This document shows, piece by piece, positions 5,983-17,731 of a stretch of DNA of 44,274 bases; position 1 is the stretch's first letter; every line of letters begins with the position of its first letter. The DNA is from a virus. The notes under the pieces are model-generated. The model ran no database searches. It saw only the letters and a program-made list of their open reading frames with translations, and was not told where the DNA came from. Location: the IMG/VR virus record IMGVR_UViG_3300027906_000036, positions 1 to 44,274 of that record; one strand, written 5' to 3'. Position numbers and translations under genes: made by a program.

Positions 5983-6039
5983 ATTATAGCAAGTTAATAT
6001 AATGTAATCCTCTTTTGAGCAATTACAATAGTATTTATA
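5983..6039 (-). promoter_or_regulatory. Early and late promoters of hsp20
   Basis: Minus-strand TGCTATAAT (extended -10; box at 5983-5988) lies close to the ATG. A perfect T4-type late box TATAAATA lies at 6032-6039, giving a leader of about 60 bases. A further TATAAT is at 6041-6046. No convincing -35 was found for the host-like boxes, as expected for an extended -10. Confidence 0.55.
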
Positions 6040-6056
6040 TATTATATGGGGTCTAA

Positions 6057-6275
6057 CTATAAAATTTCAAGAGGGTTTATTGAAATAATTGTATCAATTT
6101 CAATATCGTGATATGCTTCATCTTCTATGTCCCACACAACTATCTTGTCTCCCTGAGATTGAAATTTGCGAGGGATAGTACAATGTCTTACATGAATCTT
6201 ATCAGACGTGAGAGATTGATATTCTACTACTGCTTCTTTTAATAATAGTTTATCTAATACTTCCGTAAAGGTCAT
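6057..6275 (-). CDS. Small beta-barrel protein, WYL_2/DUF2693-like (tentative)
   Basis: Protein of 72 residues built mainly of beta strands: KEAVVEYQSL, KIHVRHCTIP, KIVVWDIEDEAYHDIEID. Length and strand order resemble the small Sm/SH3-like phage proteins of PF10902 (WYL_2, formerly DUF2693), whose role is unknown. It overlaps the stop of the adenylate cyclase gene by four bases, so it is translationally coupled to it. A role near the cyclase is possible, but only context supports that. Confidence 0.72.
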   Translation of the reverse strand: MTFTEVLDKLLLKEAVVEYQSLTSDKIHVRHCTIPRKFQSQGDKIVVWDIEDEAYHDIEIDTIISINPLEIL

Positions 6276-8122
6276 TTCTTTAGTTTTCTAATTGTGCGTT
6301 TAAAATATGGTGCATAGATTTTTACTGGTTCTTCTTTTCCTTTTACGGTTATTTCGTCAAGTTCTTTTACTTTGATATCGTCAGGCAGTTGGTCTAATGT
6401 GTATTGTGAAAGTATAATAGGTGTATCAAATGTTCTTGTTTGTACTTCAAGACGTGCACCTAGGTTTACTGCGTCACCAACTACTGAGTAATCGAACCTT
6501 GCTTCAGAACCCATGTTTCCCACTATGCATGGGCCAGTATTTATTCCTGTGCCAATCACAACGGGTGGTAATCCATATCCCTGTTCTTTGAGTTCTTTGT
6601 TCATTTGTTCAGTAAGCAGTTCTATTTCCATAGCACTTCTAACAGCCATTTCTGCGTGGTTTGGACAATCCAAAGGGGCATTCCAAAATGCCATCAGACA
6701 GTCGCCCATATACTTGTCGATGGTTCCACCATTTTTGAGTACGACTTTTGACATTGCGTCTAAGAATTTATTGATAAGTTCAACCAATCCTTCGGGGTCG
6801 TCCTCTTTCATATACTTCTCGCTTATTGGAGTGAATCCTACAATGTCGGCAAATAGGAATGAAAGTTCCCTTCTATCTCCACCCAGTTTCAATAGTTCAG
6901 GATTTTTTTGCAGTTCTTCAACCATGTCAGGCGATAAATATTTTTGGAACTGTTTCTTTATTTGTTCTTTCAATTGATACGTAGTGAAGTATTTGTTGAA
7001 AGATGCGTGACCAAAAACTAACAATGAGGCAACTGATGAGTAAAAGACATCGAGCAAAATCAAGTTCTCAATCCAAACGTAATACCCCGTATACGCCTGC
7101 AATCCAACGACACCTAGACTCCCTATCCCCGAAAGAACTGTGGGAAGTCTGTAGACCATTGCCAGTATTACTAGAGACGAAAACAGAACAAGAAAAATTT
7201 CAAGAAATTCAAGATAGTAGAATCGTTGTATTTGGAATCCTGTCAAGACGGTCTGAATTAAATTCGCTTGTACTTCATGGGGATACATTGCACCCATTGG
7301 GGTTGAAACTGGATTACTCAGACCTGAAGCAGTCAAACCCCATATAAGGATTTTATCTGCAGGGATTTCGTCCACCGCACTGACACGTTCAAACTGATTC
7401 CAAAATGCAATATTAAAGTCTGCATTAGGTTGTACTGTTAATGGTGGTAGTCTACCTATCCTTACCCATTCTACACCAACCTCAGGCGTAATCTTTATAT
7501 TGTAGGACTGTTGACCATTCATAACTCTCAATGTTTCTAGTGCGAGAGAGGGATATATCTGTCCATTCGCCATGACAGCGAGTGGAACTGCACGTACAGT
7601 TCCGTCTATAGAAGGTGAAGCACTTACAGTACCTACACCATAAACCGCCTCCTGTAGGGGTTGTATGGGACTAGAGATACCCTCATAACTGTATAACCAG
7701 TTTGCAGGGTCACCTTTACCTAACTTTGCGATACCAATATATGGTGCACTTCCAGTATCTTTTTGATTAGTTGGTGAGGCAGAAAGAAGTGAAAGTCTGT
7801 TTCCTAATGCTTGTCTAAGTTCTTCGTCTTCCCCGAATCTATCAGGTTGTGCAAATGTAGCGGTGAGGACAGAAGGATTTGTTTCAGACGTTTGATTTAT
7901 CATGTCTGCCCATACGCCTCTAGGGAATGGGAACTGTCCATATTTTTCTAATGTCTTTTCGTCTATGTCAACTAATACAATATCGTCAACCTGTATAGGT
8001 TCCTTTTGAGTTTGTAAAAAGTCAAAATAGTTGAGTCGGATTGACTCCATGAGAAACGGGTCTGATATACGAAGACCTACTAGAAGAGCGATGGTTATTA
8101 AAACCGTCCACCATTTATACAT
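6272..8122 (-). CDS. CHASE2 sensor / class III adenylate cyclase, membrane-bound
   Basis: Predicted transmembrane enzyme making cAMP from ATP, 616 residues. Order: an N-terminal membrane helix (about 5-22), an extracytoplasmic CHASE2 sensor domain (about 25-300), three membrane helices (about 305-395), a short linker and a class III cyclase domain (about 420-600). Catalytic residues are intact: metal ligands D426 (LFADIVGF) and D474 (MGDCLMAF), the adenine-selecting pair K470 and D550 (VVGDAVN), and transition-state residues N553 and R557. The K/D pair indicates adenylate rather than guanylate cyclase. It lies just downstream of the curli-type genes and SleB hydrolase, five bases from the latter. 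A complete CHASE2 cyclase is very unusual in a phage and was probably acquired from a bacterium. The ligand is unknown. Confidence 0.93.
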   Translation of the reverse strand: MYKWWTVLITIALLVGLRISDPFLMESIRLNYFDFLQTQKEPIQVDDIVLVDIDEKTLEKYGQFPFPRGVWADMINQTSETNPSVLTATFAQPDRFGEDEELRQALGNRLSLLSASPTNQKDTGSAPYIGIAKLGKGDPANWLYSYEGISSPIQPLQEAVYGVGTVSASPSIDGTVRAVPLAVMANGQIYPSLALETLRVMNGQQSYNIKITPEVGVEWVRIGRLPPLTVQPNADFNIAFWNQFERVSAVDEIPADKILIWGLTASGLSNPVSTPMGAMYPHEVQANLIQTVLTGFQIQRFYYLEFLEIFLVLFSSLVILAMVYRLPTVLSGIGSLGVVGLQAYTGYYVWIENLILLDVFYSSVASLLVFGHASFNKYFTTYQLKEQIKKQFQKYLSPDMVEELQKNPELLKLGGDRRELSFLFADIVGFTPISEKYMKEDDPEGLVELINKFLDAMSKVVLKNGGTIDKYMGDCLMAFWNAPLDCPNHAEMAVRSAMEIELLTEQMNKELKEQGYGLPPVVIGTGINTGPCIVGNMGSEARFDYSVVGDAVNLGARLEVQTRTFDTPIILSQYTLDQLPDDIKVKELDEITVKGKEEPVKIYAPYFKRTIRKLKK

Positions 8123-8127
8123 AGATT

Positions 8128-8622
8128 TTACCTATAGAATATATGTGCGGATATTTGTACTGTCTCGTTTAAATGGTGACTCCAATATGGTTGTATGTAA
8201 TAAGCATGATACCACATTGCACCTTCGGTCAAATCAAAATACTGACCGTTTAGTATTTCGTCTGCCAATTGAAGACTCTCCGCCCAAGTTTTACTGTCTT
8301 TTGGTTTATCCGACTTACCGTCACAAAACCACGAAAACTGACACATTCCTAATTTAGGAATAGTTTTACCTGTCCAAGAGGTTCTCCATTCTTTGGTTTG
8401 ATAAACTACGTCACATACCGTGTTAGGGAATTTATCATGTTCTACACGATTTAGAACTACATTTGCGACTGCAATCTTTCCTGCGAGAGGTTGATTACCT
8501 GCCTCAAAATATATGTTTTGAGCAAGACAATGATTGTCCATTTCTAGTTCTAAAGCTTCTACTTTTGTTGCACTAAAAAATAGCGCACAAAATACCAAGA
8601 TATTAATTAGTTTCATAGACAT
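8128..8622 (-). CDS. Exported cell wall hydrolase, SleB/CwlJ family (Hydrolase_2)
   Basis: Peptidoglycan hydrolase, 164 residues. An N-terminal signal sequence (hydrophobic about 4-20, cleavage near VEA) is followed by a SleB-type domain: CLAQNIYFEAGNQP with the presumed catalytic glutamate in YFEA, GKIAVANVVLNRV, FPNTVCDVVYQ and CQFSWFCDG. Family members are lytic transglycosylases or amidases. Because of its signal it can reach the periplasm without a holin, unlike the lysozyme at 2083-2529. Placed directly after the curli-type genes, it could open the wall for export or assist lysis. The start at 8622 is supported by GAGG seven bases upstream. Confidence 0.9.
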   Translation of the reverse strand: MSMKLINILVFCALFFSATKVEALELEMDNHCLAQNIYFEAGNQPLAGKIAVANVVLNRVEHDKFPNTVCDVVYQTKEWRTSWTGKTIPKLGMCQFSWFCDGKSDKPKDSKTWAESLQLADEILNGQYFDLTEGAMWYHAYYIQPYWSHHLNETVQISAHIFYR

Positions 8623-8662
8623 AATTATACCTCAAGAATTTGTTTTTGATAAGAGGGTTTTT

Positions 8663-8669
8663 TATTTAG
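8663..8669 (-). promoter_or_regulatory. Late promoter box upstream of the SleB-type hydrolase
   Basis: Minus-strand CTAAATA in the short gap after the second curlin-like gene. It gives a leader of roughly 35 bases with a normal Shine-Dalgarno. The box is followed by an A-rich run and ACCCTC, a pairing also seen after the late box at 30119. Confidence 0.4.
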
Positions 8670-8671
8670 GG

Positions 8672-9340
8672 TTAATTACCCTGCGTAACGTTGACTGAAC
8701 AACCACCTACTGTATGGCAGGTATTTGTTATATTGTATGACTGATTAGTCGAACCTTGTTGTAATAGATTTAAATTAGTATGTTCTGAACCTTGTAGTGT
8801 TATTCTTGCTTGATGACTACCACTTCCTTTTTGTTCAATATCTGTGATTGAATCATGTGAATTTTGATAATAGTATATGTGTGCGTAATGACTTCCTGAA
8901 CCTTCTTGCCAGTTTTCGTGTTCTACGCCGTTAACGTGAATGTCCATATTGAATGTGTGAGTTCCATTTTGGTAAACGTCAACTTCGTTATTGTTACCCC
9001 ATATGTGTCTACCATATGTAGCACCGTCAATCTGTGTTACTGTTTCTGTGTTACCAGTACCGTCAACGTCACCACCCCAGTTTCTTCCTGAACCCCAGTA
9101 TGATACCCAAGAAATTGAGTTACCATTCCCTGATTGGGATAGATTAAAAGTGTTGTTAGCATGTGCAAAAGTAAAATCGATATGGTTATCATATCCTATC
9201 TGCGTAATGTTAACAGTTGCATTATCACCGTCAGCAACTTGGTCTATGTGCACATGGTTATGTTCGTCACCAGCAAAGCACTGTCCTACAAAGAACAATA
9301 AAATTACTGCAATCCCTAAATGAGTTCCAGTTATTTTCAT
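8672..9340 (-). CDS. Curlin-like repeat protein 2 (CsgA/CsgB type), secreted
   Basis: Predicted amyloid fibre subunit, 222 residues. A signal peptide (residues 1-23, ending QCFA) is followed by curlin-type repeats with spaced Q-x-G-x-(N/D) cores, such as QIGYDN, QSGNGN, QNGTH, QEGSGS and QQGSTN. The mature part is rich in Asn, Gln, Gly, Ser and His. It ends with a Cys-x5-Cys loop and a last strand VNVTQ. I chose the ATG at 9340 because it overlaps the stop of the 46-codon gene (ATGA junction) and places the signal peptide at the N-terminus; an upstream ATG would add 13 residues. With CsgG and CsgF upstream, it is a likely substrate of that exporter. Confidence 0.85.
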   Translation of the reverse strand: MKITGTHLGIAVILLFFVGQCFAGDEHNHVHIDQVADGDNATVNITQIGYDNHIDFTFAHANNTFNLSQSGNGNSISWVSYWGSGRNWGGDVDGTGNTETVTQIDGATYGRHIWGNNNEVDVYQNGTHTFNMDIHVNGVEHENWQEGSGSHYAHIYYYQNSHDSITDIEQKGSGSHQARITLQGSEHTNLNLLQQGSTNQSYNITNTCHTVGGCSVNVTQGN

Positions 9341-9477
9341 TCTTGATTGTGACGTGGGTCTTGTTGTTGTTTTATCCATTCTTCTATTCTTTTTTGTTGT
9401 TCTGCAATTGTTTCTGCTTGGTCTTTAATTTTCTTTTCTTGAAATCTAAGTCTTTGCTGTTGTTGTTTTTGGCTCAT
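9337..9477 (-). CDS. 46-aa glutamine-rich coiled-coil protein in the curli cluster
   Basis: Small gene found by translating the gap between the FecR-like and second curlin-like genes. It encodes 46 residues, highly charged and Gln-rich (starts MSQKQQQQRL, ends DPRHNQE), predicted as one long amphipathic helix. Its ATG overlaps the FecR-like stop by one base (TAATG), and its own stop overlaps the next ATG. This chain of overlaps strongly suggests that it is translated. It has no signal peptide, so it should stay in the cytoplasm. A role as a chaperone or as a coupling device for the curlin gene is conceivable. Function unknown. Confidence 0.7.
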   Translation of the reverse strand: MSQKQQQQRLRFQEKKIKDQAETIAEQQKRIEEWIKQQQDPRHNQE

Positions 9478-10610
9478 TAATTTTGTTGTGTAATTATAAT
9501 ATTGATTGCTTGGTCGCCACCCATATTAATTACACTCTCCTTTTCGTTAGTTACGGTCACTATTTGTGCCATTGCGTCTACTGGTAATTTAATACTTATG
9601 GTTCCGTTTACTTCACGATAGAACGTAACCAATCCACTTCCTGTATCAACTATTGTATTGTACTGCGTGTCTTTATCAAAACCTATAGCAGTACCTTCTA
9701 TTCCAAATGTATTTCCACCACTATCTGCAGTTCTGTTTATACCCACTTTCCTATCTAACTCTTCTACAATATCAAGTAAGTCCTGTAGAAAATCAACATC
9801 TAATAGGTCTATATCTAATTCAGTAAATTCTAATTCACCTTCTGAGTCTTTCAATGCGTCTGTATCAAGACCGTCAAACTCTAAAAAGTCCACGTCCAAG
9901 ATACCACCGTCATTTGATTCTGTAGCAGACTCCTCTATCACCTTAGAAATATCTTTAGGTTGACTCACAATAAACATATTATTAATCAAACTTGGTGTGA
10001 TATTGTTTATCACCACAGGTGTAGTTGGGTATGAATTTAAAGTAGATACCATTGTGGCTTGATATGCTTCTTCTAATACTACGTCCGTACCTGATTCATT
10101 ACTAACTGTAATCGAACCTGATGCGTCACCGTTTGCGTCAGGCAAAAGTATAATAAGGCTTCGCCCGAGTTCATCGATGGTTGTCGTAAAATCTGTGCCA
10201 TTAATCGCTATGTTAGCAGTTGGCGTAGAAATCGCAATGTTCGATTTATTCATTTTACCCAGTTTACCTGAGGCAAAACGAGCTGTACCCATTACCATTC
10301 TCATCGACATTTTCGATAAGTCGGGGTTAGGGTCATAATATACTTCGTCTATGTAGACCAGTGTATGTTCTGTTAATGCAAGTTCTTCTTCGTCTAAGAA
10401 CTCAATTAGCATTCTCCCATTCCCAGTTTCCGCCTCGTCATAAAGGTTTATACTAGGAAAATCAGTAGAGGGTATTTTATTACCTTCTCTGATAATGTTT
10501 CCAATACCAGTTTGTTCAACTATGTCTCCTATCGTATCCGCATAAGAGGGATACGACAGAAGTATAGCACTAATCGTTAGTATCTTTTTGGTTAATTGTA
10601 ACTGTAGCAT
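9477..10610 (-). CDS. FecR-domain secreted protein in the curli cluster
   Basis: Exported protein of 377 residues. It has a signal peptide (1-24, ending SYA), then a FecR-like beta domain (about 30-190, including the ISTPTANIAINGTDFTT motif typical of the family), then an acidic D/E/L-rich linker (about 225-290), then a C-terminal beta domain ending in INIIITQQN. FecR-type domains occur in surface and sensor proteins and bind polymers or partner proteins. Placement between two curlin-like genes suggests a periplasmic or surface accessory of the fibre. The gene overlaps the upstream curlin gene by 41 bases. The FecR family call is good; the role is inferred from context. Confidence 0.85.
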   Translation of the reverse strand: MLQLQLTKKILTISAILLSYPSYADTIGDIVEQTGIGNIIREGNKIPSTDFPSINLYDEAETGNGRMLIEFLDEEELALTEHTLVYIDEVYYDPNPDLSKMSMRMVMGTARFASGKLGKMNKSNIAISTPTANIAINGTDFTTTIDELGRSLIILLPDANGDASGSITVSNESGTDVVLEEAYQATMVSTLNSYPTTPVVINNITPSLINNMFIVSQPKDISKVIEESATESNDGGILDVDFLEFDGLDTDALKDSEGELEFTELDIDLLDVDFLQDLLDIVEELDRKVGINRTADSGGNTFGIEGTAIGFDKDTQYNTIVDTGSGLVTFYREVNGTISIKLPVDAMAQIVTVTNEKESVINMGGDQAINIIITQQN

Positions 10611-11295
10611 TATCAGAACTCAACTGTAAGTCAATCTTGCCTGGGCATGTTTTATTTCCACATGTACCTGACTGTTGAATAATATCCATATTGATACTAT
10701 CACCTGTATGCACAACTTTTAAGTCGTGGTCAGATGCGTCAAGTTGTTTTGTGTCAATGTTATTACTGTCACCAGTAATTTCCATTTCCCATTTAGCTTG
10801 GTCTGAATCTATGTCTATAAAGAAATCGTTAGAATCTCCTATAAGCGTTAAGTCAAAATCCAAATAGTTAGCACTAGCGGCATAACCTTGGTCATAATCC
10901 CAAGTGTTACTACTACCTGTAACTGCGACATTGATGTTCGTGTTATCAGAATCACCAGTATCGCCTATATTCCAATCAAAGATATTACTGTCACCAGTAA
11001 ATACCATATTAATGGTAGAACTATCTAATACAACAGGCCCGAATAGTTGGTTGCTGTTACCGATTTGGTCAAGGTTGAACGTATTCGTTGTACCTGTCAA
11101 AATCATATCGGTTGCTACCGAACCGTTTTCTATAGTTCCACCGAATTTATTTCCGTAACCAACTTGGTCAATCGTTAATGTTAACGTATCACCTGATTGT
11201 TGCAAAAATATTTCGTTGTCGTCATCAGCTATAAGAGGCATTACAGACATTGCAAACAATAAACCTAAACATAATTTTAGTTTATTCATTTTCAT
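10570..11295 (-). CDS. Curlin-like repeat protein 1 (CsgA/CsgB type), secreted
   Basis: Predicted secreted amyloid-like subunit, 241 residues from the ATG at 11295 (11289 is an alternative). The signal peptide spans about 1-24 and ends near LIA. The mature part has about ten short repeats, early ones of the Q-x-G-x-x-N kind (QVGYGN, QIGNSN) and most of the T-G-(D/S)-S-N kind. Near the C-terminus is a Cys-x4-Cys pair (SGTCGNKTC), followed by a last strand VTINQ; the second curlin-like protein ends in the same way. A longer reading frame would add 15 residues ahead of the signal peptide, which makes the internal start better. It directly follows csgG with a 14-base overlap. Confidence 0.85.
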   Translation of the reverse strand: MKMNKLKLCLGLLFAMSVMPLIADDDNEIFLQQSGDTLTLTIDQVGYGNKFGGTIENGSVATDMILTGTTNTFNLDQIGNSNQLFGPVVLDSSTINMVFTGDSNIFDWNIGDTGDSDNTNINVAVTGSSNTWDYDQGYAASANYLDFDLTLIGDSNDFFIDIDSDQAKWEMEITGDSNNIDTKQLDASDHDLKVVHTGDSINMDIIQQSGTCGNKTCPGKIDLQLSSDNATVTINQKDTND

Positions 11296-12190
11296 ATTCG
11301 TCTTTATTCTCCTCGATGGCATGTCTTTCATTACCGCCATCTATTTTATGAGGGTGTCTATGTCGTCCGTCAATTGTCCAGTAACGTCTATCGTGTCCTT
11401 GATAAATCATTTCTAGAACAGCAGCTTCTATAGCAGCCCTCGTTGCAAAAGTCACCGACTCATTCTCTGTCACACCGTCCTCAATCTCAATGAGTTGAGT
11501 ATCCATATCTACAAATTTAAATACATCGAATCCTTGCGATACACTTAGTACAGTCTTCTTGGTCTGAACGTTCATAAGAACTTCACCAGTCAATGTACTA
11601 ACTGCTCTCAAAGAAACGACAATCGTATCTCTACGATAGGCAGTCGAGTGTCCTACGCCAAGCGTTCTTGCACCTCGGCCGCCAGTTTCCATATTGGTAT
11701 CATACCCTATAACTCCACCTTCGAGTATGATGCCAGCAAATAAAAGAGGTTGAATAGTTTCTTTACTCTCACCCTCTTCTTGAAATTGTTCTCTTGTACT
11801 TCTGACTATTTGTCTTTCACGTACAAGATTATCTAATCCTTCTCTTTCAACTACACGGAACCAACTTCCACCCCCTGCAGTTTTGAGTGCGTCTATCAAC
11901 ATTGCGGTCACTCCTTGACTGACTGCTGTACTAAATGTTGCGACACCGTCTTGTCTTTTTCTCTGTCCTGTTAGGTCTTTAAACCCATAGACAGCAACCA
12001 CTGGCATAACCTCAGCGGCTGGTAAATCTAATAATAATGCATATGCTGGAAGTTTGATTGCTTCAGGTTCTTCAATACATTCTCCGTACTCATTCATTAT
12101 CAGAGATGTACAGGAATCTTTCATGTGAGGTATTCCTGCACAACTAGATAGCAAGAGTACAAGCACTCCAACTAATAAAAGATTCTTCAC
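11282..12190 (-). CDS. csgG: CsgG-family outer-membrane curli secretion pore
   Basis: Lipoprotein that forms the ungated nonameric channel for curli subunits in the outer membrane (known for E. coli CsgG). The 302 residues carry a signal peptide with lipobox LSSC and lipidated C17, then the family pattern: VAVYGFKDLTGQRK, a VSQGVTAMLIDAL helix, VVEREGLDNLVRERQ, GGVIGYD and a SLRAVSTLTGEVL strand. The C-terminal tail (about 270-302) is His-rich then acidic and is extra relative to E. coli CsgG (277). It overlaps csgF by one base. A complete CsgG beside CsgF and candidate substrates makes a working exporter plausible. Confidence 0.96.
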   Translation of the reverse strand: MKNLLLVGVLVLLLSSCAGIPHMKDSCTSLIMNEYGECIEEPEAIKLPAYALLLDLPAAEVMPVVAVYGFKDLTGQRKRQDGVATFSTAVSQGVTAMLIDALKTAGGGSWFRVVEREGLDNLVRERQIVRSTREQFQEEGESKETIQPLLFAGIILEGGVIGYDTNMETGGRGARTLGVGHSTAYRRDTIVVSLRAVSTLTGEVLMNVQTKKTVLSVSQGFDVFKFVDMDTQLIEIEDGVTENESVTFATRAAIEAAVLEMIYQGHDRRYWTIDGRHRHPHKIDGGNERHAIEENKDEYENE

Positions 12191-12702
12191 TAAAAACCCC
12201 CAGTACCAATCGGAATTTCAATAGTTGTTGTAGTTCCGTCACTACCGACAATTGTCATTACAATCCAATCGTCACATAGTCCGTCATCGGTACAAATGTT
12301 CTTCCTTTCGTAAGTAATTGTATTTCCTTCCAGTGTAAACGTTCCGTAGTTTGCACCTTCTTCGTTTGAGAACATATTTTCAACTAACTGTTTTGATAGC
12401 TGAGCATAAATTCTCGATTCCAAATTCCTTATGAATTTGGCTAAAACTGTATTTTCTGCTTCTCTTTGTTGTTTCAAAAGAGCTGCCCTAATGTCCTCAG
12501 CAATCTTGTCTGTCCTAGACTTCTCCTGATTCTCAATTGTCAAATAATGGGCAGAAGTTCCCACGCCACTAAAGCTTGGGTTTTTAAATTTATGTACCAG
12601 TTCGTCTGCTTGTACCGAGGGGGACAAACTTATAATTGATACAACAAAGATTGATATTAAAACTCCAAGTTCTAAATTATCTTTTATTTTTTCCTTTCTC
12701 AT
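12190..12702 (-). CDS. csgF: CsgF-family curli assembly protein
   Basis: In E. coli, CsgF caps the CsgG pore and helps nucleate the fibre at the surface. This 170-residue homologue has a signal peptide (about 1-32, ending VQA) followed by ELVHKFKNPSFSGVG, matching the pore-binding N-terminus of CsgF (F-x-N-P-x-F-x-G). A helical segment then leads to the C-terminal strands WIVMTIVGSDGTTTTIEIP. A helix of about 30 residues (about 60-100) and a C-x-x-x-x-x-C pair are additions to the E. coli version. The start overlaps the upstream membrane-protein gene by 26 bases and its stop overlaps csgG. Assignment is strong because motif and neighbour agree. Confidence 0.93.
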   Translation of the reverse strand: MRKEKIKDNLELGVLISIFVVSIISLSPSVQADELVHKFKNPSFSGVGTSAHYLTIENQEKSRTDKIAEDIRAALLKQQREAENTVLAKFIRNLESRIYAQLSKQLVENMFSNEEGANYGTFTLEGNTITYERKNICTDDGLCDDWIVMTIVGSDGTTTTIEIPIGTGGF

Positions 12703-12988
12703 TCTTCTTTACCTCTTCGAGAGCCTCTTTCTCCTCTGCGTCTTGCAGTATTTCTTGGCGCTCACGATATTCCAAAACAGTATTCACTTTCTCTTGAAGA
12801 CGAATCATGTCTTGGTCAAGCATTCTTAGCTGGTCAGTTAATTTTATACTTGCAGTGAACATGCGTCCCAATGCAGGTTTAACTTCATTTGTTATGAATT
12901 TCCAAACATACCATATGAAGTATCCCATACCTATAGACATAACAACGGGGAATCCAAATTCGGCGATTAGTTTAGCTATTTCGCCCAT
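12677..12988 (-). CDS. Small membrane protein with coiled-coil tail (possible holin-like)
   Basis: Protein of 103 residues with one membrane helix near the N-terminus (about 11-33, FPVVMSIGMGYFIWYVWKF) and a long charged helical tail predicted as a coiled coil. It has the same plan as the next gene downstream (12993-13286), including a Gly-x-Pro turn at the start of the helix, so the two look like diverged tandem paralogues. One-helix proteins with charged tails include BhlA-type holins, but nothing here proves that. It is translationally linked to csgF by a 26-base overlap. Confidence 0.75.
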   Translation of the reverse strand: MGEIAKLIAEFGFPVVMSIGMGYFIWYVWKFITNEVKPALGRMFTASIKLTDQLRMLDQDMIRLQEKVNTVLEYRERQEILQDAEEKEALEEVKKNEKGKNKR

Positions 12989-12992
12989 GATA

Positions 12993-13286
12993 TCAGTCCC
13001 TTCTTGCGTCTATAGTTCCATCCTCTACAAAATTCTCCGCACGTGCGACTCTATCAACTGGGGGCGCTACGTCTAATGCACTACTAACTAATAAATCTAT
13101 GCGTATTATGTCGTTGTTCATTACACGTGCCCTAGTTTCGAGCATGGAAATGATGTTTTCTGTGGACGCTATTTGTCCTAAGACTGAATCAAAAGTAAAT
13201 TTTAATGTCAGATAAATGAAGAAAGCCATCACTACCGCAGTCCCGATAGGGATTCCCACTTCACTTAAGAATTGAAATATGTCCAT
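12993..13286 (-). CDS. Small membrane protein, paralogue of the preceding family
   Basis: Protein of 97 residues: one membrane helix (about 9-31, VGIPIGTAVVMAFFIYLTLKF), a helical middle and a short acidic tail. Helix position and the Gly-x-Pro motif match the 12677-12988 product. A late box CTAAATA lies exactly five bases before the ATG and no Shine-Dalgarno is present, so it is expected late and perhaps from a leaderless mRNA. It starts the transcription unit that runs into the curli-type genes. Holin, curli accessory or anchor are all possible; unknown. Confidence 0.75.
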   Translation of the reverse strand: MDIFQFLSEVGIPIGTAVVMAFFIYLTLKFTFDSVLGQIASTENIISMLETRARVMNNDIIRIDLLVSSALDVAPPVDRVARAENFVEDGTIDARRD

Positions 13287-13291
13287 ACACC

Positions 13292-13298
13292 TATTTAG
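13292..13298 (-). promoter_or_regulatory. Late promoter of the curli-cluster unit (leaderless spacing)
   Basis: Minus-strand CTAAATA, five bases from the ATG at 13286. A second copy, CTAAATA at 13323-13329, lies 31 bases upstream. If gp55 uses these boxes, the curli-type genes are late genes. Confidence 0.55.
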
Positions 13299-13324
13299 GG
13301 GAATGGACTTCTAGGAAGGAAGTA

Positions 13325-13352
13325 TTTAGGGCGATTTTTTTACCGCCCTAAA
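13325..13352. other. Perfect 9-bp hairpin overlapping a late box
   Basis: TTTAGGGCG at 13325-13333 pairs with CGCCCTAAA at 13344-13352 around a ten-base AT-rich loop. It lies just after the stop of the HeH-domain gene. There is no T-run after it on the minus strand, so it is not a classical terminator in the direction of transcription; the T-run is on the plus side. Its distal arm contains the late box at 13323. Confidence 0.55.
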
Positions 13353-13354
13353 GA

Positions 13355-13615
13355 CTATTTTTTTCTAATCTGCTTGATGATTTCAGCTTTTGTTTTAGAA
13401 GGTGTAACAACTATATCGTTGTTTTCTGCAAACTCAATCAGTTCTTTCTTTGTGAACTTCATAAGTTTATTAGCAGTAGGTGCTTTAAACACCTTTTCTT
13501 CTTCTACCACTGGTGGTTTGCCCACTGCAGTGTCAACCCAACCATACTTGTCATTCAAGACAAATAGTACGGGTATGCCAATCAACAAGATTATCAACCA
13601 AAATGTAGGTTCCAT
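13355..13615 (-). CDS. Membrane-anchored HeH/SAP-like domain protein
   Basis: Protein of 86 residues from the ATG at 13615, preferred over 13627 because GGAG lies six to seven bases before it. It has an N-terminal membrane helix (about 4-20, FWLIILLIGIPVLFVL), a linker, and a C-terminal 35-residue helix-extended-helix of HeH/SAP type (LMKFTKKELIEFAENN then KTKAEIIKQI). Such domains usually bind DNA or RNA. A membrane-tethered copy could fix phage DNA to the envelope, but that is inference. The domain call rests on pattern only. Confidence 0.78.
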   Translation of the reverse strand: MEPTFWLIILLIGIPVLFVLNDKYGWVDTAVGKPPVVEEEKVFKAPTANKLMKFTKKELIEFAENNDIVVTPSKTKAEIIKQIRKK

Positions 13616-13637
13616 AATATTCTCCATTATATAAGAT

Positions 13638-13644
13638 TATTTAT
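13638..13644 (-). promoter_or_regulatory. Late promoter box upstream of the HeH gene
   Basis: Minus-strand ATAAATA, overlapping the stop codon of the preceding 64-codon gene. It gives a leader of about 15-20 bases containing the GGAG site of the HeH gene. Confidence 0.45.
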
Positions 13645-13838
13645 TACACTAATTTCTCTTCTTTTAGAAGAGTATAAATCCCATAAGCTAAAGCAGGCCA
13701 AGCCAAGAGTTTAACAATCGGTGCAGCCATGAGCACTAACACTGATATTGCTATAATCGTAGCACCGTCCCATGAGGTACGTTCTGCGATTCTTGATTTA
13801 ACCCAACCCATTACTAAATCTAGTTTTGCTTTAAACAT
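13644..13838 (-). CDS. Small two-helix membrane protein, 64 aa
   Basis: An amphipathic N-terminal helix with basic residues (about 1-20) is followed by two closely spaced hydrophobic segments (about 27-42 and 44-58, AIISVLVL-like and LLAWPALAYGIYTLL) and a short charged tail. Size and shape would fit a pinholin or holin, for which this phage needs a candidate, but I see no family-specific motif. GGAGA stands before the ATG. Unrecognised otherwise. Confidence 0.72.
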   Translation of the reverse strand: MFKAKLDLVMGWVKSRIAERTSWDGATIIAISVLVLMAAPIVKLLAWPALAYGIYTLLKEEKLV

Positions 13839-13847
13839 AGATTCTCC

Positions 13848-14078
13848 TTATTTTTGAGACTCAAGTTCTTTAACTTTAGATTCTAAAGTCTCAATTCGTT
13901 TTGCGAGCAGTGGATACTTCTCAAACCACCTCTGCTCTTGTTTGATTATATCTAATCCAATTTTATCTTCACACCATTTATCTATCTTTAATAGAGTTGG
14001 CATCATGAAGTTAAATGCTCCAGTCGTTGCCAACTTGAGCACAATACTTTTCAATATTGCTAATAAAAATCCAAACAT
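13848..14078 (-). CDS. Small membrane-associated protein, 76 aa
   Basis: The start at 14078 is chosen because GAGGA precedes it by about nine bases and a late promoter lies just above; an upstream ATG at 14132 would overlap regA and put 18 polar residues before the hydrophobic N-terminus. The product has a hydrophobic N-terminal segment (MFGFLLAILKSIVLKLA) and a C-terminal coiled coil (RIETLESKVKELES). It could be a holin, an anti-holin or a small scaffold protein. No family recognised. Confidence 0.7.
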   Translation of the reverse strand: MFGFLLAILKSIVLKLATTGAFNFMMPTLLKIDKWCEDKIGLDIIKQEQRWFEKYPLLAKRIETLESKVKELESQK

Positions 14079-14098
14079 GTAATGTATCCTCGTAGGGA

Positions 14099-14106
14099 TA
14101 TTTATA
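14099..14106 (-). promoter_or_regulatory. Late promoter after regA
   Basis: Perfect T4-type late box TATAAATA on the minus strand, directly abutting the RegA stop codon. It marks the switch from the replication operon to the late-type membrane and curli genes. Predicted leader about 15 bases, with GAGGA. Confidence 0.65.
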
Positions 14107-14523
14107 CTATTCGGGTGCTTTATTATTACCAATATTGTATTTAGGTGTAAGAATCCACTCCTTTTTCTCTTTGAAAGGAATGATTTTAATCTGTGAGAGT
14201 GGTGCGGTAGGTTCTTTGATACTGTCAGGATTGACTACTTTAAGTAGATTCCACTGCTGTAAAAGGTTAATAATAGTATTCCTTCTACCAATATCGTTCT
14301 CGTCTAGGTTACTAGGTTTACCGTCCAGTATGAATAGTTCTTTGAAGTGGGTTATGTAATACTTCCCACGTTTGTGTAAGATATGGCAAGACTGATACAG
14401 TTCTTGTTCTTTACGTGACGCTACACCAATCCTAGTGAGAGTCTCACGTATCTTTAAAAAATCGTCTTTTTCGGGAAATGTAACTTCGATTAAGTCTTTG
14501 ACTTCGTTCTCATAACTTTCCAT
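14107..14523 (-). CDS. regA: RegA translational repressor
   Basis: RNA-binding protein that in T4 blocks translation of early mRNAs, including gene 44, by covering start sites. The 138 residues align well with T4 RegA (122): FLKIRETLTRIGVASRKEQ, LYQSCHILHKRGKYYITHFKEL and EWILTPKYNIGN. A C-terminal extension of about five residues and an N-terminal one of about nine are small differences. I use the ATG at 14523; a GTG four codons upstream would be the alternative. It overlaps gp62 by 14 bases. In T4 it is followed by gene 43; here an island follows. Confidence 0.96.
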   Translation of the reverse strand: MESYENEVKDLIEVTFPEKDDFLKIRETLTRIGVASRKEQELYQSCHILHKRGKYYITHFKELFILDGKPSNLDENDIGRRNTIINLLQQWNLLKVVNPDSIKEPTAPLSQIKIIPFKEKKEWILTPKYNIGNNKAPE

Positions 14524-14908
14524 TATCCTTGCCACCTTTTGTCATTCTTTTTTTCAATTCACGAACCTGCTTATCAGTAAGAACTTCCAAATATTCCTTT
14601 GCTTTTAAGTTACTTACTTGATAGTAGTCCTTGATTGTATCTAACTTTTTACTAATATAGGGTTTAGACCAAGTTGAAAATCTTTGTCTTTTCCTTAGTA
14701 TATTTAGATAAAAAAGGTATTGAAGGCGGTTATCTACACCATGACGTATGTTCATTTCATTTGCAAAATAAACTGCGTCTTGGTGATAGGATAATGCTTT
14801 ATTAGTTATGAATGGTGCATACTGCTTCTCAGCAATATCGTCCACCATAATATCTTTTTTGGTATGGGATACAGATTTAACATAATCAAACGGGTTAGTT
14901 TTCTTCAT
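14510..14908 (-). CDS. 62: Clamp loader small subunit gp62
   Basis: Partner of gp44 in the sliding-clamp loader. The 132 residues are shorter than T4 gp62 (187), as in other marine T4-like phages. Recognisable pattern: NPFDYVKS near the N-terminus, KQYAPFITNKALSYHQDAV, FANEMN and LYFLNILRKRQRFSTW. The place between gp44 and RegA matches T4 order, apart from two inserted genes. The overlap with the 91-codon gene upstream is four bases. Confident from sequence plus synteny. Confidence 0.92.
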   Translation of the reverse strand: MKKTNPFDYVKSVSHTKKDIMVDDIAEKQYAPFITNKALSYHQDAVYFANEMNIRHGVDNRLQYLFYLNILRKRQRFSTWSKPYISKKLDTIKDYYQVSNLKAKEYLEVLTDKQVRELKKRMTKGGKDNGKL

Positions 14909-15180
14909 GCAGTTTTACTTCTATATGAATCTACAAGGTCTTGACCTTTTAATTCTTCTCCAAATTTGTATACCACTTTTCCATTTTGTTCTCTTATGGT
15001 TACGCCATTGTTATATGTAGTATCAGTAACATAACCGTTATCGAGAAATTTTTTGGAATCTTTTGTTTCATAGTACATGGAATACAACCTATGTATTTGT
15101 AAGGTGTGTATTCCTTTCGCCCACTCTTCTGCTTCGAGAAGTTCTCGTTGGCGTCGTACTACTTCGTCAAACTCACTCAT
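14905..15180 (-). CDS. Hypothetical protein between peroxiredoxin and gp62, 91 aa
   Basis: Small soluble protein: a helical N-terminus (EVVRRQRELLEAEEWAKGI) followed by short beta segments (GVTIREQNGKVVYKFGEE). I do not recognise a family. It overlaps the peroxiredoxin stop and the gp62 start by four bases each, so it is produced with the clamp-loader operon. No functional clue beyond context. Confidence 0.75.
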   Translation of the reverse strand: MSEFDEVVRRQRELLEAEEWAKGIHTLQIHRLYSMYYETKDSKKFLDNGYVTDTTYNNGVTIREQNGKVVYKFGEELKGQDLVDSYRSKTA

Positions 15181-15707
15181 GCAACAAAGTCGTCACCCTC
15201 GTTCCATTCACAACCAGTCAGTCCACCAGCTTGAATTGCTTTAAGAGTTCTAAGAACTTCTTGAGCATTTCTACCAGTATCTAACCCATTGACAGATACG
15301 TGTTGAATGATTCTATCTTTATCAAAGATAAATGTTGCACGATTACAGACACCTTCCTCAGCATTGACAATGCCAAGTTCAGAAGATAACTTGAGACCAC
15401 AGTCAGCGGCAAGTGTGTGTTTGATTTCTCTAATCACACCATTCGCTTGTTTCCAAGCAGACTTACAGAATTCATTATCACCCGAAATACCAATCACGTT
15501 TGCATGGTCAACTAATATGTCCATACCAGCAATCTCAGTTGGGCAGATAAAGGTAAAATCTTTTGGATAAAAGTAGACTACCGTCCAATCATGTTTAAGG
15601 GGTTGATACCCTTCAACGATTTCAACTTCAACGAAGTCGTTGTTCTCGTCAATTCCATTCAGTTTACAAGGTGGGAATTGGTCACCTACTGTTAACATTC
15701 CTAACAT
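15177..15707 (-). CDS. Peroxiredoxin, AhpC/Prx family
   Basis: Thiol peroxidase reducing hydrogen peroxide and organic peroxides, 176 residues. The peroxidatic cysteine is in the classical PKDFTFICPTE motif, and a supporting arginine is in CNRATFIFDKD. A second cysteine near the C-terminus (LTGCEWNEG) sits where AhpC-type enzymes have the resolving cysteine, so a typical 2-Cys mechanism is likely. No signal peptide. Its ATG has AGGAG with good spacing. The gene is inserted between gp44 and gp62, with a one-base overlap to gp44. Protection of the host from oxidative stress during phage replication is a reasonable inference. Confidence 0.95.
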   Translation of the reverse strand: MLGMLTVGDQFPPCKLNGIDENNDFVEVEIVEGYQPLKHDWTVVYFYPKDFTFICPTEIAGMDILVDHANVIGISGDNEFCKSAWKQANGVIREIKHTLAADCGLKLSSELGIVNAEEGVCNRATFIFDKDRIIQHVSVNGLDTGRNAQEVLRTLKAIQAGGLTGCEWNEGDDFVA

Positions 15708-16654
15708 TACTTACTCCTAAATGAACACTCACTCATAATCTCAGTCAAACATGCCACAAGATTGACCTCAGTATCAGCCGCAAATGCGGATTTGTATTGA
15801 TAGTCTGCTATGATTAAAACACAGGCAGGTATCGAGGCAGGTTCGAGTTTATGCTCGAGTGCATTAAATATCTTTCTATACATTACAGACAAGTCGTTGT
15901 CGGAATTCTCTCCGACCCACTTACGCATTTCAGTCCACTTCTTTTCTTTGAGTGTATTTATCAATGGCGTAATCTTCTCTTCTGCAAGAGTAGAAAGTAA
16001 CCCAGTATCGATTTCACCACCGATACCATATCTTTGAACCTCGTTTAGACAACGTCTAAAGTCGGGAAAGAATTTCATAATAAGTTCAGCAAGTACGTCT
16101 TGATTGAACTTAATTTCCTCTAGTGTACATATCTCCATGAGTCTTGCTAAGAACACACTTGCAAGTCTAGGTTTCTCACTATTAGGAATCTTGAAGTCAA
16201 TCACAGTACATCTTGAATGTAAAGGATTGATAATTCGGTTCTTGAAATTACAAGTCATAATGAACCTGCAATTAGAACTGAACTCTTCAATGAATCCACG
16301 CAAAGCAGGTTGAACAGATTCGGCACTAATGTAGTCTGCTTCGTCTAGAATAACTACTTTAGGGCCTCCTGCCAAACTGGTGGTGGACGCAAAGTTTTTG
16401 ATTTTGGTTCTTAAGGTATCAATCAATCTACCTTCATCAGAACCGTTGATAACTATAAAGTCTGCACCTAGTTCATTACAAAGTGCCTTCGCTACAGTCG
16501 TTTTACCACAACCTGCAGTCCCGTTCAACATTAGATTAGGAATCTCACCCGTCTCTACAATGTCTTTGAATGTGGCATACAGGTCACTTGGAAGTATACA
16601 GTCGTCAATCTTTTGAGGACGATACTTCTCTACAAATAAAAATTCATTGTTCAT
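15707..16654 (-). CDS. 44: Clamp loader large subunit gp44 (AAA+ ATPase)
   Basis: ATPase that opens gp45 rings and loads them on primer ends. The 315 residues (T4: 319) show Walker A GTAGCGKT at 45-52, Walker B VVILDEADY, sensor 1 FIMTCNF and the SRC arginine-finger motif (LHSRCTV). Start: ATG at 16654 in the context AAATTATGAAC, which resembles the T4 gene 44 initiation region that RegA binds. A multi-branched RNA structure lies directly upstream (16660-16759). Identification is certain. Confidence 0.97.
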   Translation of the reverse strand: MNNEFLFVEKYRPQKIDDCILPSDLYATFKDIVETGEIPNLMLNGTAGCGKTTVAKALCNELGADFIVINGSDEGRLIDTLRTKIKNFASTTSLAGGPKVVILDEADYISAESVQPALRGFIEEFSSNCRFIMTCNFKNRIINPLHSRCTVIDFKIPNSEKPRLASVFLARLMEICTLEEIKFNQDVLAELIMKFFPDFRRCLNEVQRYGIGGEIDTGLLSTLAEEKITPLINTLKEKKWTEMRKWVGENSDNDLSVMYRKIFNALEHKLEPASIPACVLIIADYQYKSAFAADTEVNLVACLTEIMSECSFRSK

Positions 16655-16659
16655 AATTT

Positions 16660-16759
16660 AGTCTCGTTAAAAGGTTGTAAAATCCCCACCGATTTTACGG
16701 CGTGACCCACCCTAGTTGTGTGATGAGAAGGGGTCACTCCCGAAAGTATTACAGAGACT
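16660..16759 (-). ncRNA. Structured leader RNA upstream of gp44
   Basis: The 137-base gap between gp45 and gp44 can fold into a closed multi-branch structure on the minus strand. P1 is AGTCTC/GAGACT (16754-16759 with 16660-16665), enclosing P2 GTGACCC/GGGTCAC (16731-16737 with 16702-16708) and P3 GTAAAAT/ATTTTAC (16692-16698 with 16677-16683). All pairs are Watson-Crick. The 3' arm of P1 ends five bases before the ATG of gp44 and includes the only Shine-Dalgarno-like bases. It may control gp44 translation or be a riboswitch or RegA-type element. I do not recognise a known class. Confidence 0.5.
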
Positions 16760-16791
16760 GGCATAACACTAACACATTATTATATATGCCT

Positions 16792-17457
16792 TTAAGCACT
16801 ATATTTTGAATCAGGTTCCAGTGCAATAAAATACTCTAGGTCAATATCCTTGTTCTTGAAATGGGATATACCTTTACTTGATACAGATACTGTATAGTTA
16901 CCTGCAAGAACTTTTAGGTTCTCAATCTTAAAGTTCATAGAGAACGAAGCACCATTTCCAGTGCCCACGATTCTGCTGAACGTGTTTGTAGTTGAATTCT
17001 TTTTATCCTTAACGGTCAATGAAATATTCGTACCGTCAGATTCAAGAACCAAATCAGTTACACCCAAAACACTTGACGCTTTGTTCAAGTCACTCAATAG
17101 TGTGCTACTAATATCGAACACGATTTCTGCCTCAGGCATTGTAATCATCTTCTCAGGTGAAGTCACCATTCCTTCTGAAGCATAGAAATATGACATTGAC
17201 GAATTGTTATCCGTAATAGTCATAGCTGCGTCATTGAATTGAAAGTCGGGGTCTTCAAATAAAGACGTTGCACCCAAAAATTCAGGCAGGTTATACACAG
17301 AAAATCCTTGAGGGAACGATTCATTTACCGTTGCAACCGCAAGAATGTTTTTCATATTAGAGATAGTCTCTAATTTGTTTCCAGCATTTACTTTAATGCC
17401 AGAGTTAATTGTTGAGAAGTTCTTTAGAACTTCCTTGGTTTCATTACTTATCTTCAT
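16792..17457 (-). CDS. 45: Sliding clamp gp45
   Basis: Trimeric DNA clamp giving processivity to gp43 and, in T4, activating late transcription together with gp55 and gp33. The 221 residues (T4: 228) have the clamp pattern: an early MKISNETKEVLKNFSTIN helix region, NILAVATVNESFP and FPMFSVYNL-like strands. The start is ATG 17457, because AGGAGA lies ten bases upstream of it but downstream of the alternative ATG at 17478. It overlaps the DUF3310 gene by 14 bases. Order 45-44-(x)-62-regA follows T4. Confidence 0.95.
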   Translation of the reverse strand: MKISNETKEVLKNFSTINSGIKVNAGNKLETISNMKNILAVATVNESFPQGFSVYNLPEFLGATSLFEDPDFQFNDAAMTITDNNSSMSYFYASEGMVTSPEKMITMPEAEIVFDISSTLLSDLNKASSVLGVTDLVLESDGTNISLTVKDKKNSTTNTFSRIVGTGNGASFSMNFKIENLKVLAGNYTVSVSSKGISHFKNKDIDLEYFIALEPDSKYSA

Positions 17458-17731
17458 CACTTTGTAGTCTCCTATCATGATTGTTTAGAGCAAGGAATCC
17501 ATAGTGGATTACTTTCAAAAGGTCTGCTCTGTTATACCCATCTTTTTTTCCGTATCGTTGTGCATATTTCATAATGTTCCCGATACAAAATCCCTCACCA
17601 TGACCACTGTCCATAATAAATTCAGTCGCCTGAAACTTGTTATGACTATAGTGTTGGTCATAAGTCTTGTCTATATACGAAGAGAACTCCTTTAAGAGTT
17701 CTCTCTCGTTGTATTTGTAATTAATACTCAT
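17444..17731 (-). CDS. DUF3310-type small protein
   Basis: Protein of 95 residues with the DUF3310 pattern: HYSHNKFQATEFI, GFCIGNIMKYAQRYGKK and ADLLKVIHYGFLAL. Many phages encode such proteins, sometimes annotated as nucleotide kinase-like, with no proven activity. It starts the clamp operon. Its ATG has a TATAAT box six bases upstream and no Shine-Dalgarno, so the message may be leaderless. The family is likely; the function is open. Confidence 0.85.
   Translation of the reverse strand: MSINYKYNERELLKEFSSYIDKTYDQHYSHNKFQATEFIMDSGHGEGFCIGNIMKYAQRYGKKDGYNRADLLKVIHYGFLALNNHDRRLQSDEDK

Follow-up and report, generated by a model that had tools for sequence, protein, structure and literature searches.

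A predicted curli-type secretion cassette with a curlin-tailed FecR-domain protein in marine T4-like myophages

Curli (type VIII secretion) cassettes have been described in SAR11 and OM43 phages (Zaragoza-Solas 2020; Buchholz 2022; Wittmers 2022), with FecR and cyclase genes in the relevant passages of the last of these. In podophages, the passages of PMC9599517 that treat the cassette give a gene upstream of csgF called histidine kinase (HK), then CsgF, CsgG, CsgA/B, FecR, a second CsgA/B and an adenylate cyclase, and place the set in myophages as well by the profiles of those authors. For the myophage Melnitz, the corresponding part of PMC9004378 reports csgF and csgG, holds csgA and csgB to be absent and proposes a role in lysis; the GenBank record of Melnitz nevertheless names two 'curlin associated repeat protein' genes and a 'FecR domain protein'. 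Here we analyse the module of this type carried by the virus record IMGVR_UViG_3300027906_000036, a stretch of 44,274 bases with a GC content of 37.5% (the window, hereafter). Its first-pass annotation had pointed to precedents in SAR11/OM43 myophages, and the cassette is indeed published, including in HTVC008M and Melnitz. The further suggestion that an order with a FecR-like gene may be new has to be given up, such an order being described in the cited part of PMC9599517 and the Melnitz record naming FecR and curlin proteins. No paper bringing curlin, FecR, adenylate cyclase and operon together was found in the literature searched, supplements, preprints and most subscription papers lying outside that search.

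On the minus strand, the window module reads from 5' to 3' as three small open reading frames (ORFs), two small membrane proteins (TM1 and TM2), CsgF, CsgG, a first curlin-like protein (curlin 1), an FecR-domain protein, a 46-residue ORF, a second curlin-like protein (curlin 2), a cell-wall hydrolase and a cyclase. The HTVC023P-type pelagipodophages, as the cited passages of PMC9599517 describe them, likewise have CsgF, CsgG, CsgA/B and FecR, often with a second CsgA/B and an adenylate cyclase, and are set apart, by description only, by their upstream histidine kinase where the window has a pair of membrane proteins of about 100 residues. Closer still are HTVC008M and Melnitz (Kyanoviridae), which share the order TM1, TM2, csgF, csgG, cur1, fecR, cur2, cyclase and whose csgF, csgG, cur1, fecR and cur2 orthologues are 27-47% identical to those of the window; the module lies at a different genomic site in these phages, and the hydrolase and the 46-residue ORF are added in the window. 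With the curli system of Escherichia coli (csgBA, csgDEFG) the window shares the CsgG pore, CsgF and curlin repeats, to which it adds the FecR protein, the cyclase and the membrane pair, while csgE, csgC and csgD were not seen. The gene order of the E. coli operon also differs from that of the window. The module is best explained as a curli (type VIII secretion) cassette carried by T4-like myophages of the sea.

All the genes named in the first-pass annotation are present, the exporter and fibre genes forming a single overlapping operon, and profile searches recovered CsgG (PF03783), CsgF (PF10614), curlin (PF07012) and FecR (PF04773). The extent given there, 8672-12702, covers the core genes and misses both conserved ends, namely the upstream membrane pair and the downstream CHASE2 cyclase, since the conserved unit runs from 13286 down to 6272. 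In order to follow the gene order in related phages, 114 viral-contig loci were taken from two CsgG scans (the best 80 of 418 and the best 80 of 167 relatives) and joined with HTVC008M, Melnitz and the window. The order csgF, csgG, cur1, fecR, cur2, cyclase is identical and on one strand in 117 of 117 loci as far as the contigs reach, many of these contigs being near-identical and all among the closest relatives, hence not independent events. Moreover, two TM proteins precede csgF in each of the 115 loci that hold csgF. Scans with TM1, TM2 and FecR, each limited to the best 80 of more matches and sharing contigs with the CsgG set, point the same way: csgF or csgG was found in 70 of 71 TM1 loci with enough flank (80 loci, 79 new) and in 71 of 73 such TM2 loci (80 loci, 76 new), and the 80 FecR loci (77 new) have csgG in 69/69 with upstream flank and the cyclase in 50/50 with downstream flank.

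CsgG (11282..12190, GTG start) carries the lipobox LSSC and matches PF03783 at E 4.8e-53 and solved E. coli-type CsgG chains at 1.3e-46. With NCBIfam it reaches 2.4e-50 for the CsgG model, below that model's own cut-off, versus 3.4e-9 for HfaB, and on these profiles a CsgG identity is preferred. CsgF (12190..12702) scores 7.6e-15 with PF10614, over cut-off, and keeps an NPxF motif; phmmer against the PDB returned no CsgF chain and chance-level matches only. Both proteins, lipobox included, are therefore as first annotated. Across the loci the docking-type motif of CsgF is kept in 82 of 85 distinct proteins, bacterial rows carrying it too as NPxF, and a loose lipobox pattern is found in 82 of 85 distinct CsgG proteins. 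Since both are kept, a canonical pore serving export is more likely than a bare one. A further CsgG, with 42.5% identity to the query, comes from OR851715.1, an unannotated record of 1,499 bases under the name Salmonella phage S.Kent 1-2-1, which may be host DNA submitted as a phage sequence.

One exact TATAAATA, a promoter candidate of the T4 late type, is located upstream of the entire unit, at 14099..14106 on the minus strand. The window holds eight exact copies, all on the coding strand, against an expected mean of 3.59 (4 of 100 shuffles reach eight), and the next after the one at 14099-14106 is at 6032-6039. The placement of the operon "behind late promoters" is thus only partly borne out, by a single candidate before all of its genes, and transcription of the cassette is probably late, starting from 14099. 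The three small ORFs between the candidate and TM1 (13355..14078, minus strand) are without clear family.

A late-type promoter candidate would also suit a repurposed pore, in which the outer membrane is opened or depolarised by CsgG-CsgF as infection ends, TM1/TM2 behave like holins, the hydrolase helps and the curlins are plugs or remnants, in line with the lysis role proposed for Melnitz in the cited part of PMC9004378. The hydrolase (8128..8622), a SleB-type cell-wall enzyme with an N-terminal hydrophobic leader (PF07486, 2.5e-28), stands between cur2 and the cyclase in 17 of the 75 loci holding both, the window included, and TM1/TM2 have one N-terminal hydrophobic stretch with faint holin matches (phrog_4898, 0.0049 over 22 residues; YvrJ in 2 of 32 sequences, best 0.047). 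However, the hydrolase is absent from this slot in 58 of the 75 loci, and its rarity there led to the rejection of a lysis cassette as the principal interpretation; furthermore, the curlin and FecR genes are as constant as the pore and the docking motif of CsgF is kept. A separate lysozyme-like endolysin gene is found at 2083-2529 (phrog_7, 2.3e-13), which would make the hydrolase a second wall enzyme. An egress pore is hence considered unlikely.

Two curlin-repeat proteins had been annotated beside the pore genes. Curlin 2 (8672..9379, minus strand; the likelier start is ATG 9340, overlapping the stop of the 46-residue ORF) matches PF07012 at 3.5e-5, over cut-off, NCBIfam CsgA at 1.1e-4 and, by profile, solved CsgA (8c50) at 9.4e-5. 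Curlin 1 (10570..11340, minus strand; likelier start ATG 11295 or 11289, before the leader) has no match of its own in the Pfam scan, and its assignment follows from its relatives, NCBIfam and the fold: of 43 relatives in the alignment, 31 score E<=1 with Curlin_rpt (lowest 5.4e-5), NCBIfam CsgA is matched at 0.0025, and the predicted structure is a beta-solenoid (pLDDT 80.9) that superposes on CsgA 8c50 with Z 16.2 at 21% identity. In both proteins the G/N spacing peaks at 22 and four motifs fit the R-motif pattern (7 and 10 of 2000 shuffles reach four), none being found in the FecR protein. Both also show N-terminal hydrophobic leaders in a hydrophobicity scan. Exported curlin-repeat subunits are thus indicated firmly for curlin 2, and more weakly for curlin 1 alone. 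A Cys pair lies at the C-terminus of curlin 2 in 67/67 distinct proteins and near that of curlin 1 in 79 of 81, the curlin 1 proteins of HTVC008M and Melnitz missing it; this pair is possibly a disulfide cap.

Phage tailspike and tail-fibre solenoids are also among the curlin 1 fold matches and late expression is plausible for virion parts, so the repeat proteins might be virion fibres that merely resemble curlins. We find this hardly credible given the leaders on both proteins, the outer-membrane pore that always accompanies them and the similar genes on contigs with bacterial flanks described below. The coiled-coil-like 46-residue ORF (9337..9477, minus strand) overlaps fecR at its stop and curlin 2 at its start; it recurs in 14 ORF matches including the window's own and is confined to close relatives.

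The protein encoded between the curlins, at 9477..10610 on the minus strand, has the FecR domain annotated earlier (PF04773, 2.6e-6) and a curlin-type C-terminal end. In HTVC008M, Melnitz and the window alike, this protein closes with a hydrophobic-x-hydrophobic-x-Q-x-N strand resembling the ends of curlins. Among distinct proteins, a pattern devised after viewing these three and then counted across the loci fits 76 of 77 for FecR and 64 of 67 for curlin 2, versus 16 of 1548 other complete ORFs of at least 80 residues from the same loci, and a stricter form fits 71/77, 59/67 and 17/1548, respectively. In curlin 1 some additional residues come after a similar strand, so that the end-anchored pattern fits only 2 of 81. 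In the FecR scan, whose contigs are partly shared with the first set, the tail is present in 73/73 distinct proteins longer than 300 residues. In one locus (L039, 11329-12400) the FecR gene is split into two ORF matches, that is, a frameshift or an assembly error.

The predicted structure of the FecR protein (mean pLDDT 70) has a confident beta domain at about residues 28-200; beyond a region without structure (212-301), a small beta domain closes the protein, with the tail as its last strand. The larger domain superposes on the PupR signalling domain 6ovk with Z 16.1 (2.5 A over 138 residues), followed by two further anti-sigma entries at Z 14 and then a row at 6.1. The periplasmic FecR/PupR signalling domain of an anti-sigma regulator is therefore present; the cytoplasmic sigma-binding domain and the membrane span of such regulators were not found, as no sigma-binding domain was matched in Pfam at E<=0.1, only about 25 residues precede the beta domain and no hydrophobic window of 19 exceeds 1.6. 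In sequence and model, the protein appears to keep the sensor part of FecR proteins and to add a curlin-type end. No match to it was found in plasmids by tblastn, and no published statement on a curlin-tailed FecR protein was met in the literature searched. Because of the tail and the missing anti-sigma part, the role of an exported fibre partner suits the protein better than that of an iron regulator, which suggests that a gene taken for the latter encodes the former.

These features also bear on the proposal, offered in the cited parts of PMC7029224 and PMC9599517, that the pore serves the infected host by taking up large nutrients or cofactors, with FecR in iron sensing. The match to a periplasmic signalling domain agrees with it, yet the protein has neither the sigma-binding part nor an internal membrane span and bears a curlin-type tail, the Pfam scan of 20 window ORFs showed no sigma-factor or TonB-receptor gene, and an importer would not need two curlin-repeat proteins. 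An uptake channel is thus most improbable.

The slot published as a histidine kinase holds two small membrane proteins in 115/115 loci. TM1 (97 residues, 12993..13286, minus strand; phrog_18771, 1.9e-21) has a hydrophobic window at 10-28 and then a charged tail, and the related TM2 (103 residues, 12677..12988, minus strand; phrog_18771, 6.5e-26) one at 7-25. None of 32 TM1/TM2 sequences matches a kinase domain at E<=0.1, these being myophage-type sequences and not the published podophage ones. At least one hydrophobic stretch is found in 75/75 distinct TM1 proteins; of 78 TM2 proteins, 48 exceed the simple threshold and 30 fall short. By charge bias, the C-terminal side would face inwards in 60 of 75 TM1 and in just 26 of 48 TM2. 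In the phage collection, the TM2 of HTVC008M matched six records (those of HTVC008M and Melnitz), all bearing csgG. On two contigs from the scans (L219/L301, which are one contig, and L305) the pair occurs with no csgF or csgG match in nearly 4 kb downstream.

At the other end, the gene at 6272..8122 (minus strand) encodes CHASE2 (PF05226, 2.5e-32) and class III cyclase (PF00211, 5.2e-19) domains, the latter of adenylate type by motif. The catalytic motifs are kept in 52, 51 and 50 of 52 distinct relatives, the count of 51 being obtained after reading 10 pattern misses as DKYMGDCIMS, and the K and D residues are of the ATP type. A Pycsar defence assignment was rejected: the PycC profile scores 2.8e-22 on the shared cyclase domain and the other nine module proteins have no PADLOC match at E<=0.01. 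This PycC score is likely a false call for defence-annotation pipelines.

A partnership of FecR and CHASE2 proteins draws support from bacteria. In the Burkholderia 'BiofilmReg' operon, as given in the passage concerned of PMC5192318, the gene for an exported FecR-domain protein also lies beside a CHASE2 receptor gene, with LysM-FecR, a CHASE2 histidine kinase and a response regulator there instead of the curlin-tailed FecR and CHASE2 cyclase of the window; and two of three bacterial FecR matches away from csg genes have a cyclase directly downstream. In the bacterial genomes searched, CsgF exceeds the cut-off in 3 of 289 from one class (four reach E<=0.001) and was found in 5 of 185 from another; seven of these CsgF regions (L154-L160) show no FecR, cyclase or TM match within 10-18 kb. 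Two Caulobacteraceae contigs from metagenome-assembled genomes (MAGs; L125 and L126), flanked by bacterial glycosyltransferase, amidohydrolase, phosphoesterase and peptidase genes, hold csgF, csgG, two curlin genes, a curlin-tailed fecR and the CHASE2 cyclase in a row, with CsgG 46% and 53% identical. Unlike the window, they have no TM1/TM2 and both curlins stand before fecR. INVTQD is the C-terminal end of both their FecR proteins, unlike that of the three FecR matches lying apart from csg genes. A 38-row CsgG tree places this pair on a long branch within a clade of 15 rows that includes the window (98/89), so that either form, bacterial or phage, may have come first. Genome contigs with bin names such as Saprospirales, Synechococcus and Planctomycetaceae (L118-L124 among them) also bear the phage form of the module, TM pair included, and are probably phage DNA in bacterial MAGs.

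Concerning its genomic surroundings, the window matches the portal, major head protein, tail sheath and DNA polymerase families of a T4-like myophage, its major capsid protein being 67% identical to that of Melnitz and 64% to that of HTVC008M. The 5' end of the module adjoins a regA-like gene (14107-14535) of a T4-like replication block with gp45-, gp44-, gp62- and regA-like genes (14078-17731), and on its 3' side an Hsp20 gene is followed farther on by the DNA polymerase gene (gp43; 2-1825). In HTVC008M and Melnitz the module is located between the ssDNA-binding protein gene and tail/baseplate genes; the cassette has moved to a different genomic place between these phages and that of the window. 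Megablast of positions 6000-15000 against phages gave zero matches, and no tRNA genes were found in the window. An AhpC/TSA-type peroxiredoxin gene lies within the replication block, at 15177-15707.

The gene set, its order and conservation, the motifs and the folds are what the analysis shows; that the cassette exports curlin-like proteins is a prediction, to which we give a probability of about 0.6. The two proteins would pass the Sec system, as in the known curli pathway, be threaded through the CsgG-CsgF pore of the outer membrane and nucleate outside, assembling as curli-like fibres on the infected cell late in infection. The FecR protein would be exported too, and its curlin-type terminal strand could join or cap the fibre. 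As the likely partner of the CHASE2 receptor, it would let the cyclase report the state of fibre export as cAMP, a step that is the weakest of the scheme and doubtful when taken alone. The TM1/TM2 pair, which almost always accompanies the phage form, may act from the inner membrane as a gate, timer or scaffold for export. Tentatively, the whole might amount to a self-sensing amyloid exporter, in which a curlin-FecR hybrid caps or rides the fibre and signals as cAMP through the CHASE2 cyclase, the membrane pair coupling it to late timing. Late surface fibres would alter the contact of the infected cell with cells or phages, by aggregation or by a block of superinfection; these two roles and lysis are hypotheses.

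Several points weigh against export and fibre formation. Curlin 1 is weak by sequence, its best PDB profile match being CsgA at just 0.11, and Foldseek with its model gave nothing at E<=0.001. In the fold comparison solved CsgA stands level with solenoids unrelated to it (SufB/SufD, Z up to 17.6), so this match supports a curlin identity and does not prove it. The leader of the FecR protein was unflagged by the hydrophobicity scan, the signal peptide being read by eye only, and with a narrow profile FecR was a neighbour of CHASE2 at only three of 30 CHASE2 loci from Alphaproteobacteria (two co-oriented, one divergent). CsgE and CsgC, noted as not visible in the first-pass annotation, were indeed not seen among the 20 window ORFs scanned, the window being a genome fragment. 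Moreover, no clumping of Melnitz-infected cells is reported in the part of PMC9004378 concerned, where csgA and csgB are called absent, and fibre formation is a prediction from the gene content.

Beyond the published passages cited here, the comparison adds the curlin-tailed FecR protein, the membrane pair in the kinase slot and the bacterial csg-fecR-cyclase order without that pair. The rare TM1/TM2 copies outside the cassette could reveal the function of the pair by itself. In widespread ocean phages, curli cassettes form large accessory operons, and a curlin-ended FecR protein together with membrane proteins instead of kinases shifts attention to a fibre-bound FecR and cAMP, away from iron regulation.

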